This document shows positions 21,258 to 28,516 of a stretch of DNA of 64,000 nt, one piece after another. Position 1 is the first letter of the stretch. Each line of letters starts with the position of its first letter. This DNA is from an uncultured SAR86 cluster bacterium (GTDB taxonomy: Bacteria > Pseudomonadota > Gammaproteobacteria > Magnimaribacterales > D2472): NCBI GenBank assembly GCA_902623535.1, contig CACNUA010000003.1, positions 1 to 64,000 on the forward strand. Reading direction: 5' to 3'. Under the pieces are notes generated by a model that was not told the origin of the DNA, searched no databases, and saw nothing but the letters and a program-made list of their open reading frames with translations. The translations under genes were made by a program, and so were the position numbers.

Positions 21258-22493
21258 ATGATTAACATAGATGAGCTAACAGTAGACCATTTTTTTGATC
21301 CATCATCAAAGAATTTCATAGATGATCCAAAACCCACTATTGAAAAATTAGTTAAAGAATTTCCTATCGCTAGGTTTAATGCATGGTCAGCATGGTTAGT
21401 TACAGGTAATAAAAATATTACAAACTGTTTACTGGATAGAAGGCTATCAACTGACTTTAATCTCTGGGAGCATGCTCCACCAAAAAAAGAGCTTGCAGAT
21501 ATGGATGCTTTTGAAAAGCTAATGAATAATAATTTATTCTTTTTAAATAGGTCCAATCACCTAAGACTTAGAAAGCTTGCATTGCCTGCATTTTCACCAC
21601 GCATTATGGAGCAGATGAAGGTTAGATTTACAAAGTTAGTTAAGGAAAGATTTGATGAAATTGGTAAGCCTAAAAAATTTAATTTTGCCACCGAAATTGC
21701 AGAAATTATTCCGACCCAAGCTATTGCAAGTTTAGTAGGCATCCCTAGAGATAAATTTCCAATATTTGATTCGCTTGCTTATGGAGTGGTAAGAGGCATC
21801 AATCCAATGCTAACACCCCAAGAGAGAGCTGAAGCAATCGAAGGGGTACCTGCTGGTTTAGATCTACTTAACGAGCTTATTGATGAAAAGAGAAAGAATC
21901 CATCTGATGATTTTTTATCTACTCTTATTACGGCAGAAGAAGATGGCGATAAACTGTCTAACTGGGAAATGTGCGCACTAATCGGTGCGGTTTTAGGAGC
22001 TGGATCTGATACTGCAGTTGATTTACACAGTTATTTAATTAGGGCTTTATTATCTCATCCTGATCAACTAGCTGAATTAAAAAATGACGAAAGCTTAATT
22101 CAAAATGCTATTTCAGAGACTCTACGGTACGAATCGTCTGGTAAAACAGGTTTAGCAAGGTATGCATCTGAGGACCTTGAGATTCTCGGTGTTAATGTAA
22201 AAAAGGGTGAGATGGTACAACTGATAACTAGTACTGCTGGGTTAGATCCAAATGCTTACGAAAACGCAAATACTTTTAATATTCACAGAAGTCATGACAA
22301 AAGTATAAGTTTTGGTCAAGGTCCTCATTACTGCATTGGGGTTACATTGGTAAGATCTCAAACGGAAGTTATGCTCAAAGAGCTATTTTCAAGGTTTCCT
22401 GATTTAAGCCTTTCTGGAAAAATGGATTATGACTACAAACATCACAACGCAAGAAGAATGACGATTCTTGAAGTAGAAACTAATCTCAACTAA
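21258..22493 (+). CDS. cytochrome P450
   Basis: heme motif SFGQGPHYCIG, I-helix GAGSDT, ETLRYESS (ExxR). Confidence 0.95.
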   Translation: MINIDELTVDHFFDPSSKNFIDDPKPTIEKLVKEFPIARFNAWSAWLVTGNKNITNCLLDRRLSTDFNLWEHAPPKKELADMDAFEKLMNNNLFFLNRSNHLRLRKLALPAFSPRIMEQMKVRFTKLVKERFDEIGKPKKFNFATEIAEIIPTQAIASLVGIPRDKFPIFDSLAYGVVRGINPMLTPQERAEAIEGVPAGLDLLNELIDEKRKNPSDDFLSTLITAEEDGDKLSNWEMCALIGAVLGAGSDTAVDLHSYLIRALLSHPDQLAELKNDESLIQNAISETLRYESSGKTGLARYASEDLEILGVNVKKGEMVQLITSTAGLDPNAYENANTFNIHRSHDKSISFGQGPHYCIGVTLVRSQTEVMLKELFSRFPDLSLSGKMDYDYKHHNARRMTILEVETNLN

Positions 22494-23368
22494 AAGATAT
22501 TTGGATTAGGTAAATCTCCTCTGCTCAAAATAGAGTCAACCCTGTCTTTAAAAGCTTGTTCTGATTTCTCATTTGCGGGGTTAATCCAATACTTGCCTTC
22601 CCTAAGTTCAGCCAAGCAAAATTTAGCCACTTCTTCAGGAGTGGTTGTTTCCATTTCGACGCCCATTGATTTCATCATATCAACCATATCCTCAACGGAA
22701 GAAATTGGATGCTCCGGGGCGTTTGGATCTCTGGCTAAATCATCTGGTCTATTTCTTTCTGCAGAAAAAAGATTGGTTCTAACTGTATGGGGTCCTGGGA
22801 ATAGGATAGATACTTTTATATTACTTTCCGATTGATCTAATTGAAGCTTTAAGACCTCACTGATACTTGAAACTGCGGCTTTTGATGAGGTGTATATCGG
22901 AGTACTTGGAAGGTTAATAAATGCGCCATTACCTGAACAAGTATTTATAACATTTGCTTCTTTTCCATGACTTAACATATCAGGTATGAAAGCCTGCAAA
23001 CCATGAACAATACCCATAACATTAACCCCGTAAGCCCAATTCCAATCATTAGGGTTAGTATCCCAAATGGATTGTAATTCAGCTGGTGCAACACCAGCGT
23101 TGTTAAAGAGCATTTGAACATCGCCGACTTCAGAGGTGACAAATTTATTGAGCGCGACCATTGATTCATGATCGGACACATCTGCTTGTTTAATGTGAAC
23201 AGATGAGCCTTCTTTTTCTAAGTTGGTCCTTGCAGATTCGAGCGCAGAGGATTCAATGTCACTCAAAACTACTTTCGCTCCTTCTTTTGCTAGAGCAGCA
23301 CCAATTGCATAGCCTACGCCGGAGGCTCCACCGGTAATTACAGCAACCTTATCTTTGAAGTTAGACAT
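22490..23368 (-). CDS. short-chain dehydrogenase/reductase
   Basis: TGGASGVGYAIG, NNAG, YTSSKAA. Confidence 0.95.
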   Translation of the reverse strand: MSNFKDKVAVITGGASGVGYAIGAALAKEGAKVVLSDIESSALESARTNLEKEGSSVHIKQADVSDHESMVALNKFVTSEVGDVQMLFNNAGVAPAELQSIWDTNPNDWNWAYGVNVMGIVHGLQAFIPDMLSHGKEANVINTCSGNGAFINLPSTPIYTSSKAAVSSISEVLKLQLDQSESNIKVSILFPGPHTVRTNLFSAERNRPDDLARDPNAPEHPISSVEDMVDMMKSMGVEMETTTPEEVAKFCLAELREGKYWINPANEKSEQAFKDRVDSILSRGDLPNPNIF

Positions 23369-23372
23369 TTAA

Positions 23373-24137
23373 TCAGCCGTCGTATCTTGAATGCATGAAT
23401 GGAATGTAGCCCATAGGGTCCACCTCTTGCATCACAGATGCATTGCTTGAAGATGAGCCCTCCTCCCATGTCATTGATACCATCTCTTCAACCGGAAGGT
23501 CAACAACTGGATCAACTGGAGACTCTCGCAAGGTAAGCTCGCCATCTAGATTCAAGTTAACTGTTTGCTTTCGGTGCATATCTATTTTGACGAGCAATGG
23601 ATTTTGATCGCAAACTTTATTTTGCTCACATGATGGGAAAACTTTAAAACAAAAAACTTGATCAGTGAATGATGAGGTTTCAGCCTCATCTTTTACACTT
23701 CCATTAAACTCAATATATTTAATGCCATGCCTTTCAACACTCGCATGACATGAATCTCCATCTTTGCTTGCTTCGACATTTGCAATCTTTTTAGGTTCAC
23801 CATAGGTTTCTCTACCGCCCACAACAACGCCTTCCCCTTCCATCGGCATTGTGATTTCATAAATACCTTCCATATCTTTGTATTTGCAGTTGACACCAAA
23901 AGTCGCGGCACCAAACTCAAGACCATCATGCAAATCGACGAATACTCGGGACATTACAATTCTTACCATTGGGTCATCAGCAACAGTTAAAGGTGCTGGG
24001 ATGAGTTGTTCAATGAGACCTGGTGTAGTTTTATAAAAAACTTTTACAGCTTGCATTGTTGCATCAAAAAACTCTAAATTATTTTCAGCTGCTTCTTGAA
24101 GTTCAGCTGGTGTTTTTACATATCTTAATGTTGCCAT
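23373..24137 (-). CDS. acetoacetate decarboxylase-like protein
   Basis: GEPKKIA Schiff-base Lys motif; in-frame ATG at 24137 with AAGGAT upstream preferred over 24176. Confidence 0.8.
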   Translation of the reverse strand: MATLRYVKTPAELQEAAENNLEFFDATMQAVKVFYKTTPGLIEQLIPAPLTVADDPMVRIVMSRVFVDLHDGLEFGAATFGVNCKYKDMEGIYEITMPMEGEGVVVGGRETYGEPKKIANVEASKDGDSCHASVERHGIKYIEFNGSVKDEAETSSFTDQVFCFKVFPSCEQNKVCDQNPLLVKIDMHRKQTVNLNLDGELTLRESPVDPVVDLPVEEMVSMTWEEGSSSSNASVMQEVDPMGYIPFMHSRYDG

Positions 24138-24196
24138 ATCTTTTATCCTTTTTGATTTACCTGATATCATAACCAATTATCTAAAGGAATTTAAAT

Positions 24197-25201
24197 ATGC
24201 CAAAACAAGAATTTCCGTTTCCTATGCCAAATGGTTGGTTTTGTGTCAGCAGATCTGACGAAATAAAGGCTGGCGAACTTAAAAATATAAAATTTTGCGA
24301 GAATGATGTTGCTGCATTTAGAACTGAAAGTGGGATAGCTGCTGTACTAGATGCTTATTGCGGTTATTCAGGTATCAATATAGCTTTATGTGGAGAGGTT
24401 ATAGAAGAAGCACTATATTGTTCAAAGACAGGAATTAAATGGAGTACTGATGGTTCTTGTATTGATATAGATGATGACTCGCTTACTCCTGAATCAGCGA
24501 AAGATATTAAAATATTTAATTATCCAGTTGTAGAGATGAATGGTTTTATTTGGGCTTGGCATCATTTGCTGAAAGAAAAACCATACTTTGAGTTGCCAAT
24601 GCTTGATGGCTTTAATGGTGACAATGAAAAATGGGGAAAGGTTTATCACTACGAATATAAGATCAATACTGTTCTTCAAGAAATTGCAGAAAATGATGTA
24701 GATCAAGCTCATTTTCCAAAAGTGCATGGCTCACCATCGTTACCTGAAACTGAGGCTATCGTTGATGGTATTTACAGAAAAACCATAGCTGAAACTCTCA
24801 TGGATCCAAATAATGATAGTGTTTCTGAGGAATTTAAAGTTGAAGATCAGGGAATGTTTACAACTACTTTCACTAGAGAGTCTTGGGGTCTTGGTTGTGT
24901 TGGGTTGCATATGGTAAATCTTCCTCCCTCAGGCGGAGAATTTATTATGGTTAATGCATCCTGCCCGGTTGATAACAAAAATTCAATTTTAAGATGGTCA
25001 ATGCGAGTCTCTAAAGATATTGAAGATGAGCTTGGTATGGCAATCATAGATGGCATTGCTAATGGTGTTTTAGATGATATGCCAATATGGGATAACAAAA
25101 GCTATGTAGCAAACCCAATACTCTGTGATGGAGATGGTCCGATAAATAAGTTTAGAAAATGGGTAAGTCAGTTTTACTCTGAAGTCCCAGATACTGCATA
25201 A
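24197..25201 (+). CDS. Rieske-type oxygenase homologue (KshA/DAF-36-like) with degenerate Rieske site
   Basis: D169-x2-H172-x4-H177 iron motif in ENDVDQAHFPKVHG and DDMPIWDNKSYVANPILCDGDGPINKFRKWVSQFY C-terminus; Rieske positions read C55-G-Y57 and C75-S-K-T78. Confidence 0.82.
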   Translation: MPKQEFPFPMPNGWFCVSRSDEIKAGELKNIKFCENDVAAFRTESGIAAVLDAYCGYSGINIALCGEVIEEALYCSKTGIKWSTDGSCIDIDDDSLTPESAKDIKIFNYPVVEMNGFIWAWHHLLKEKPYFELPMLDGFNGDNEKWGKVYHYEYKINTVLQEIAENDVDQAHFPKVHGSPSLPETEAIVDGIYRKTIAETLMDPNNDSVSEEFKVEDQGMFTTTFTRESWGLGCVGLHMVNLPPSGGEFIMVNASCPVDNKNSILRWSMRVSKDIEDELGMAIIDGIANGVLDDMPIWDNKSYVANPILCDGDGPINKFRKWVSQFYSEVPDTA

Positions 25202-25204
25202 AAT

Positions 25205-25786
25205 TTGGCAAAAGTTCATTTCTTTTATTCGACCATGAATGCGGGTAAATCTACTGCCCTCCTTCAATCAAACTATAACTACAATGAGAGAGGCATGGAT
25301 ACGTTGCTCTTTCTTCCTAAAGTAGATGCAGATGCAAATGAAAATAAGATTCACTCAAGAATTGGTTTGATTGCTGATGCGATTTCAGTAGACACTAATT
25401 TTGATTTTTTTGAGTATGTTCAAAACTCTAAAAATAATAAGAAGGTCGATGCAATATTAATTGATGAAGTTCAATTTCTTACAAAAGATCAGGTTAGGCA
25501 AATTTGTAAGATAAGCGATACTCTAAATATTCCATCAATGTGTTATGGAATCAGAACTGATTTTAGGGGAGAACTCTTTGAGGGAAGCTCAGAACTACTT
25601 GCACTTGCAGATAATTTGATTGAGCTAAAAACTGTTTGCGACTGTGGAAGAAAGGCAACTATGGTAGTTCGGCTTAATGAATCTGGTAATGTGATTACTG
25701 CAGGTAAAAAAATTCAGATTGGTGGAAATGATACTTACAAAGTTTTTTGTAGAAAACACTTCAGGGAATTAACTAACTTAATTTAA
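25205..25786 (+). CDS. tdk: thymidine kinase (TTG start)
   Basis: STMNAGKSTALLQ, DEVQFL, CDCGRKATMVVRL. Confidence 0.95.
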   Translation: MAKVHFFYSTMNAGKSTALLQSNYNYNERGMDTLLFLPKVDADANENKIHSRIGLIADAISVDTNFDFFEYVQNSKNNKKVDAILIDEVQFLTKDQVRQICKISDTLNIPSMCYGIRTDFRGELFEGSSELLALADNLIELKTVCDCGRKATMVVRLNESGNVITAGKKIQIGGNDTYKVFCRKHFRELTNLI

Positions 25787-26389: not shown

Positions 26390-28516
26390 ATGCAATATTC
26401 AAACCTTCTAAAAAGCTCCTCCATTGGAGATATGCAATTAAGAAATAAAATTGTGATGGCTCCAATGGGATCCAATTTCGCTTCTGAGGATGGTCATGCA
26501 AGCGAGAGATTAAAATCTTATTATGAGGAAAGAGCTAAAGGGGGTGTAGGTTTAATTATTTTAGAGACTTCCGCGGTGAGTTGGCCTGCAGGATCCTCAA
26601 TGCCAAATATGATTGGATATTCTGAGGATAGATTCATTCCAGACTTACAAGACCTTACATCAAGGGTTCACCAATACGGTGCCAAAATTGCAGCCCAATT
26701 AAATCATAGTGGAAAAATTTCTCAGGAAGATGTTGTTGCTGGCTTGGAAATTCCAGTTCCATCCATCCCCAAAATGCATCCAAGTGACATGTTTGGGCTT
26801 TTGACTGAAGCAGAAATAATGAATTTCATTAAAGCTGCGGGCCCTGATGGGAAAGGCCCTAGATATCATGAGCTTACAACTGAAGAGATTAAAGTCGAAA
26901 TTGAACACTTTGTTTCAGCCGCTAAAAGAGCAGTCGAGTCAGGCTTTGATGCCATTGAAATTCATGCCGGGCATGGCTATCTAATCTCTAGCTTTTTATC
27001 TCCCGCAGTTAATAGACGAACGGATGAATATGGAGGAAGTGCAGAAAATAGGGCAAAATTATTGGTAGAGATAATTTCAAATATTAAATCGTCCATTCCT
27101 ACCTCTATTCCAGTAATTGTTCGCCTTGATGCATTTGAATACAGAATTGAGGATGGAATCTCAACTGATGATTTTCTTGTTACTATAAAACTTGCTGAGG
27201 AAGCTGGAGCAGATGCACTTGATATTAGTGCTTACGGAAATCCTGCTAAAGGAATTGCCTTTACGGAAGCTCCTCTTGTTCATGAGCCAGGTGGGTTTAT
27301 AAAATTTGCTAAACTTGCTAAAGCTCAATGCTCAATTCCTATTTTAGCTGTTGGGAGAATTAATTTAGATGTAGCTGAATCAGGCATAAAAAATAATGAT
27401 TTTGATTTTGTTGTGATGGGACGAAAGCTCCTTGCTGATCCGTTTCTTCCCCAAAAGCTACTAAATAATCAAGAGTCGCTGATTAGGCCCTGTATTTATT
27501 GTTATGTTTGTGTAAGCAAAATTTTTATAAATCAGCCTATGTGTTGCTCTGTCAATTCATCTATGGGTAAAGAATTTGAAGATAAAGATCTTTATTCAAA
27601 ACCTAATAAAAAGAAAAACATTGTGGTTATTGGTTCAGGGCCTGCAGGTATGGAGTCAGCTAGAATTCTTGGTGAACGAGGTCACAACGTTACAGTGATA
27701 GAAAAGGAAAAAGATATTGGTGGTACTTTAAGAGTTGCCTCACTTGCATATGAACCCAATCAAGCATTGATTACTTATTTAAAAAATAGTCTTAATCATC
27801 TTGGAATAAAAATTAAAACTAAAACTGAAGCAAATTTAAAAGTATTAAAAAAGATATCTCCTGATCATGTGCTTTTTGCAACAGGCGCCAAAAGAAATGC
27901 ACCACATATTCCCGGCAAAGGATTAGGGCATGTTTTTGATGGAGAGGAGTTAAAGTCCTTATTAATTTCAAGTAACAGTAAAGCTGAAAAAAAACTAAAT
28001 ATTCTTTCAAGGCTAATCTTAAAAGCTGGTAATCTTTCTCAACTCTTAAGGAATATATCTACCTTAAGATTCCTAAGTAAATTTTGGATGCCTCTTAAAA
28101 AAGAGCTTGTGATTATTGGTGGTGATCTGGTTGGTTTAGAGCTAGCGGAATTTCTAACTGAAAGGGGTAAAAAGATTACCGTCGTAGAGCCTAGCAATGA
28201 CTTAGGTCCTAATTTAAGTATTGTTAGGAGATCTCGAGTAATACATCTACTTAAATCTCATGGGGTTAATATTATCAAGAACGCAAAAGATATTAAGATC
28301 TCTAACTCAGATGTAAATTTTGAGCTAGATGGTGCCTGTCAATCAATCAAAGCAAATCAGGTCATCATAGCTATGGGAACTGAACCCAATACTGAGTTTG
28401 CTGAAGAACTTATAGAAAATAATTTTAATGTTTCTATGATAGGAGATTGCACCTCAGTCGGTTACATTGAGGGAGCAATATCTGACGCTAGGATCGCAGT
28501 AAAGGAGATTATTTAA
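26390..28516 (+). CDS. NADH:flavin oxidoreductase / 2,4-dienoyl-CoA reductase-like (OYE + FAD/NAD domains, Fe-S)
   Basis: HAGHGYLISSFLSPAVNRRTDEYGGSAENR; CxxCxxC; GSGPAGMESARILGERGH. Confidence 0.92.
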   Translation: MQYSNLLKSSSIGDMQLRNKIVMAPMGSNFASEDGHASERLKSYYEERAKGGVGLIILETSAVSWPAGSSMPNMIGYSEDRFIPDLQDLTSRVHQYGAKIAAQLNHSGKISQEDVVAGLEIPVPSIPKMHPSDMFGLLTEAEIMNFIKAAGPDGKGPRYHELTTEEIKVEIEHFVSAAKRAVESGFDAIEIHAGHGYLISSFLSPAVNRRTDEYGGSAENRAKLLVEIISNIKSSIPTSIPVIVRLDAFEYRIEDGISTDDFLVTIKLAEEAGADALDISAYGNPAKGIAFTEAPLVHEPGGFIKFAKLAKAQCSIPILAVGRINLDVAESGIKNNDFDFVVMGRKLLADPFLPQKLLNNQESLIRPCIYCYVCVSKIFINQPMCCSVNSSMGKEFEDKDLYSKPNKKKNIVVIGSGPAGMESARILGERGHNVTVIEKEKDIGGTLRVASLAYEPNQALITYLKNSLNHLGIKIKTKTEANLKVLKKISPDHVLFATGAKRNAPHIPGKGLGHVFDGEELKSLLISSNSKAEKKLNILSRLILKAGNLSQLLRNISTLRFLSKFWMPLKKELVIIGGDLVGLELAEFLTERGKKITVVEPSNDLGPNLSIVRRSRVIHLLKSHGVNIIKNAKDIKISNSDVNFELDGACQSIKANQVIIAMGTEPNTEFAEELIENNFNVSMIGDCTSVGYIEGAISDARIAVKEII

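Follow-up and report, generated by a model that had tools for sequence, protein, structure and literature searches.

Rieske oxygenases are defined by the transfer of electrons to a mononuclear iron from a Rieske [2Fe-2S] cluster, which requires both of its histidines. In these enzymes, electrons pass from the cluster of each subunit to the iron of its neighbour (PMC12445004), and an iron subunit of the family without a Rieske cluster of its own has been described, namely NdmC of the NdmCDE caffeine N-demethylase (PMC4408171). Steroid catabolism genes have been reported in SAR86 (PMC4810484), in which the full ring-degradation set is found in a few genera of the Suzuki family (PMC11582366). Here, we focus on a protein encoded in a 64,000-nucleotide stretch of DNA from an uncultured SAR86 cluster bacterium (the window, meaning the whole stretch), which is a member of the Rieske oxygenase family related to the 3-ketosteroid 9-alpha-hydroxylase oxygenase KshA, with both Rieske histidines gone and the iron site intact. 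An earlier note, made from the letters of the window, had proposed the loss of a normal Rieske cluster and the retention of the iron site; the sequence supports this and extends it to a set of SAR86 genomes, where the degenerate domain, neither a one-off nor a case of simple decay, behaves as an allele that recombination exchanges with the domain of normal orthologues occupying this locus. We found no description of this degenerate (D) form in the open-access literature.

The KshA sequences of the PDB align to the window protein end to end (phmmer E value 8e-25 to 4QDC), in keeping with the KshA-type match first noticed along its whole length. In this alignment, Y57 and T78 lie opposite the two Rieske histidines of KshA (LDAYCRHMGG...CPFHDWRW in 4QDC), and D169, H172, H177 and D294 lie opposite its iron-site residues, so that the mononuclear site (two His and an Asp, with the bridging Asp) is complete, as the note had held. 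The Rieske motif C-x-H...C-x2-H reads C55-x-Y57...C75-x2-T78, and the codons confirm that both histidines are replaced and both cysteines kept (C55, TGC, 24359-24361; Y57, TAT, 24365-24367; C75, TGT, 24419-24421; T78, ACA, 24428-24430). A canonical C-x-H/C-x2-H pair elsewhere in the protein, which the note had allowed for, does not occur. Profile searches place the protein in KshA_C (PF19298, 107 bits, cut-off 23.3) and return a weak match to the Rieske family (PF00355, 33.4 bits); no KshA-level match was found in NCBIfam. A structure model built with 37 homologues (pLDDT 88, pTM 0.88) has the two-domain fold, Rieske plus catalytic, with ten-residue blocks over residues 11-120 scoring 89-98, although its alignment includes canonical homologues that may draw the D model towards the canonical fold, and a model from a shallower alignment was poor in the catalytic domain. 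The Rieske fold is predicted with high confidence to persist without its histidine ligands.

Table 1. Features of the D-form locus and of comparable loci (window positions unless another locus is named).
Feature	Position	Strand	Basis
KshA-family oxygenase-like protein, degenerate (D) form, 334 aa	24197..25201	+	Intact ORF; Pfam Rieske and KshA_C; KshA structures
First ligand loop, C55-G56-Y57 (canonical C-P-H, His to Tyr)	24359..24367	+	
Second ligand loop, C75-S-K-T78 (canonical C-P-F-H, His to Thr)	24419..24430	+	
KshA_C catalytic domain, about residues 120-334	24554..25198	+	97% identity to canonical congeners over residues 120-330
D169-x2-H172-x4-H177, bridging Asp and two iron His	24701..24727	+	Invariant across all aligned rows
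D294, likely third (carboxylate) iron ligand	25076..25078	+	Invariant across all aligned rows
Degenerate Rieske-domain segment, the exchanged stretch, about residues 31-116, borders approximate	24287..24544	+	Diagnostic columns; mosaic test; sliding identity; tree conflict
Cytochrome P450, conserved neighbour	21258..22493	+	PF00067; synteny
Short-chain dehydrogenase, conserved neighbour	22490..23368	-	PF00106; synteny
Acetoacetate-decarboxylase-like protein, conserved neighbour	23373..24176	-	PF06314; synteny
Thymidine kinase, conserved neighbour	25205..25786	+	PF00265; synteny
Split KshA, examples	L068:3928-5223(-); L069:4523-5825(+); L070:4508-5772(-); L073:4901-6188(-); L071:2-1016(-)		Rieske-only ORF (CxH...CPFH) plus catalytic-only KshA_C ORF

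The nearest relatives of the window gene all come from SAR86, or from MAGs grouping with SAR86. At the same locus, 12 genomes carry the canonical CPHLGAH...CPFHAWRW motif (G002, G004, G006, G014, G042, G046, G050, G101, G105, G109, G116 and G117) and nine carry the degenerate domain (G000, G005, G021, G038, G058, G102, G103, G111 and G113), and the loss of the first histidine is therefore not peculiar to one genome. Its replacement is conserved across the nine (Tyr in eight, Phe in one), whereas the other residues that might have marked a clade are not: the second position holds H, Q, N, S or T, and C65 occurs in the window protein only. Of the two cysteines that the earlier note called extra, C88 is not so, since most canonical orthologues have Cys there (GTC). 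An all-Cys [2Fe-2S] cluster with four conserved cysteines near the site, one of its suggestions, is rejected: besides the uniqueness of C65, L033 has Ser in place of C75, and C88, an ordinary position of the family, is lost in L020 and L037, whose motif reads CAF...CPKS.

All genomes except the single-contig G005 are drafts, most of them incomplete; the D form is present in CP097973 (L020), a record deposited as a complete genome, and in several other assemblies, and the frames are intact in all complete D copies. The homologues recovered from outside SAR86, in other families and in the class sample, are canonical. Those recovered away from this locus are canonical too; the exceptions are the catalytic subunits of split KshA and one paralogue with a frameshift. 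L039 (61%) and L081 (54%), orthologues at a greater distance, have the canonical motif, which leads us to regard that form as ancestral and the D form as derived. Genomes with the AG-313 prefix include both the D form (L007 and L013; N18 and D11) and the canonical form (L015 and L018; P16 and O08), and both may thus occur together in a single sample, provided that the prefix denotes the sample.

The gene order is common to both forms, running from acyl-CoA dehydrogenase, TonB receptor, P450, short-chain dehydrogenase (SDR) and acetoacetate-decarboxylase-like (ADC-like) genes through the oxygenase to thymidine kinase, SnoaL-like and OYE genes, and comparison of gene order at the locus revealed no gene that accompanies the D state alone in all D genomes. 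As a separate observation, the OYE/2,4-dienoyl-reductase-like gene is replaced in some D genomes by a version that is shorter and strongly diverged, at about 35% identity (window 26390-28516; L008, L010, L011, L020, L022 and L026), and the usual version is kept in the D genomes L007 and L013.

The two halves of the oxygenase gene have different histories. Within the family, identity over the catalytic half (residues 120-330) ranges from 79 to 100% and is not split by state, whereas identity over the Rieske core (residues 45-112) is bimodal, at 81-100% between canonical proteins, 41-97% between D proteins and 35-50% between the two; the window protein itself shares 97% of its catalytic half and 35% of its Rieske core with canonical congeners. 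A perfect separation of D from canonical is found in 21 alignment columns, all within residues 31-104 and none in the catalytic half. The Rieske-domain tree unites the D proteins in one clade (100/100) and rejects a clade of the five rows of the window's genus (p-AU 2e-6). By contrast, a D clade is rejected by both the catalytic-domain tree (p-AU 5e-8) and the tree of four flanking genes (p-AU 1e-58), on which the state changes seven times, with at least five changes forced by well-supported branches. A triplet mosaic test delimits a D-like segment in the window gene from about residues 37/54 to 114/123, with none of 20,000 permutations as extreme; sliding identity agrees with this segment, and the other D genes give consistent signals, weaker in some triplets. 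Since the Rieske, catalytic and flanking-gene trees conflict so strongly, the segment must have been exchanged by recombination several times. The D domain, about residues 31-116, has thus been exchanged between SAR86 species by homologous recombination. No direct donor of the window's D segment was found, the best match to the core being only 68%.

The mosaic in the window gene could also be an assembly chimera of two strains, given that the draft genome containing the window consists of 36 contigs at 71% completeness, and that four related contigs break inside the oxygenase gene. Such a chimera would, however, need two in-frame misjoins within 1 kb; the D form recurs in CP097973, titled a complete genome, and in several other assemblies, and the tree conflict does not depend on the window alone, which leaves this reading scarcely credible. 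Silent alternative cassettes or phase variation were rejected, the PF00355 search having found no spare Rieske segment of the oxygenase gene within any genome, the single-contig G005 included. A plasmid origin was likewise discarded (all plasmid matches were below 60% identity), as was a phage origin (no match). The contigs that break inside the gene (L022, L023, L025 and L026) start there, and two of these starts fall at residues 94 and 101, close to where the exchanged segment has its 3' border, perhaps by chance or perhaps because assemblies break where the site is polymorphic.

A codon model estimates omega at 0.046 in the Rieske region of D genes and at 0.008 in that of canonical genes; in the catalytic half, D genes have 0.011 and canonical genes 0.012. 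All values are approximate because pairwise dS is near saturation. Fixing omega at 1 worsened the fit for the D Rieske region by 190 log units under a null in which kappa was set to 2 as well. Purifying selection thus acts on the D domain, less tightly than on its canonical counterpart, and the domain is not freely decaying; the catalytic domain is under equally strong constraint in D and canonical orthologues. This bears on the view of the D domain as a loss-of-function allele, nearly neutral and in decay, that recombination spreads, for which one may cite its omega, about six times that of the canonical Rieske region, and the free variation at the second histidine position. Against it stand an omega of about 0.05 and the rejection of neutrality, the intact frames of all complete copies, a catalytic half as constrained as that of canonical genes, and newly conserved residues in the D loops (I60, G79 and I80, and mostly Y57, S58, N61 and K81). 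Decay is thus already largely refuted and very improbable, and a pseudogene is rejected on the selection analysis, as expected in the note from the intact frame at 24197-25201; its concern that a single genome under relaxed selection might carry the substitutions has likewise been dispelled. We are confident that the locus holds two alternative Rieske domains, one of them an allelic, cluster-less version, in an otherwise ordinary KshA-family oxygenase.

What such a protein does is less firmly indicated. On the reading that we favour, the catalytic iron would still work, on the same substrate class and in the same pathway, the D domain would serve as a folded, cluster-free structural part, and a separate protein, such as a free ferredoxin or a stand-alone Rieske subunit, would deliver the electrons, after the manner of NdmC with NdmD or of split KshA. 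The electron step in trans, which draws on these analogies, is possible rather than probable, and its combination with an allelic cluster-less domain is our best joint explanation, a tentative one. Most SAR86 genomes of this set have a split KshA, in which a Rieske-only ORF of about 132-149 aa adjoins a catalytic ORF of about 280-290 aa that has no cluster region. D and canonical SAR86 genomes alike conserve this arrangement, which recurs in G061, from a second family of the order. It is possibly a two-piece 3-ketosteroid hydroxylase, and its neighbours look, by sequence, like 4-hydroxy-2-oxovalerate aldolase and acetaldehyde dehydrogenase; the oxygenase locus is set apart from this steroid-type cluster. 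Its presence in the same genomes, together with the NdmC precedent, makes supply of a cluster in trans plausible in the SAR86 lineage, and the tie to the window protein is one of analogy.

Several results speak against electrons in trans. Neither a compensating Rieske gene nor Fer2 proteins were seen to track the D state, an absence that is weak evidence in genomes that are mostly drafts; Rieske matches in the PF00355 search number 4-5 per D genome and 2-7 per canonical genome. The neighbourhood comparison gave no electron-partner gene at the oxygenase locus, and no NdmC-type fusion of a Rieske domain to a reductase was found, the Rieske matches of D genomes lying in open frames of 109-395 aa, too short for one. 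A folded D domain would also fill the Rieske place in the trimer, so that a Rieske protein coming from outside might be kept from the iron. The bridging Asp, moreover, may have been retained solely to keep the iron histidines in place. The want of a partner tracking the D state favours instead a mononuclear-iron enzyme with no need for Rieske electrons, that is, a redox-neutral, peroxide- or substrate-driven enzyme (isomerase, lyase or shunt oxygenase) acting on the same ligand class. The unchanged constraint on iron site and catalytic domain fits this alternative, as do the new conserved loop residues, as if adapted to a cluster-free state. Since no catalytic-half column separates D from canonical, however, nothing points to a new active-site reaction; we regard such an enzyme as possible too, and place iron chemistry with outside electrons only just ahead of it.

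A canonical paralogue (about 35% identical) is present in most D genomes, which, with the passage of electrons from one subunit's cluster to the next subunit's iron in Rieske oxygenases, raises the alternative that D proteins act as non-catalytic or regulatory subunits, binding a ligand or forming mixed trimers in which the paralogue's cluster serves them. A non-catalytic protein would not need the iron ligands, which are invariant, and the paralogue is distant in sequence, equally common in canonical genomes and broken in the window's own genome, all of which render this role improbable. The broken copy, L072:4684-5677(-) (G000:C26), consists of overlapping ORFs of 108 and 252 aa, through either an assembly error or a frameshift.

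Taken more broadly, the locus may represent a trans-species domain dimorphism, in which SAR86 maintains two electron-input domains at one locus, one with a Rieske cluster and one lacking it, with recombination exchanging them and selection preserving both, the cluster-less enzyme being active through another electron source or another chemistry; we consider this a serious possibility, still short of probable. That a domain lacking its cofactor has been swapped again and again among abundant ocean bacteria is an unusual evolutionary pattern, and a tie to iron economy is possible but speculative. The two forms provide matched natural pairs with a near-identical catalytic half, differing mainly in whether the cluster can form, and the need for the cluster is thus directly testable in vitro.

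Compared with known systems, the window protein shares with KshA (PDB 4QDC, 4QDF and 2ZYL) the whole-chain fold (TM 0.83 for superposition of the model on KshA5), the KshA_C domain and the iron-site motif, but is only about 25% identical to it and lacks both Rieske histidines. The canonical SAR86 orthologue (e.g., L006, L009 and L017) has the same gene order and nearly the same catalytic half (97%), and differs in its CPH...CPFH motif and in a Rieske core only 35% identical. Like NdmC, the D protein would, by its sequence, be an iron subunit without its own Rieske cluster; unlike NdmC, which works with NdmE and with the reductase NdmD and its fused Rieske domain, a partner of a kind not found for the D form, it keeps a Rieske domain predicted to be folded and cluster-free. 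The split KshA of SAR86 (e.g., L068:3928-5223) is likewise a KshA-family catalytic protein without its own cluster, found in the same genomes, but its cluster region is absent altogether, a Rieske-only ORF lies next to it, and it is not an allele of a canonical gene.
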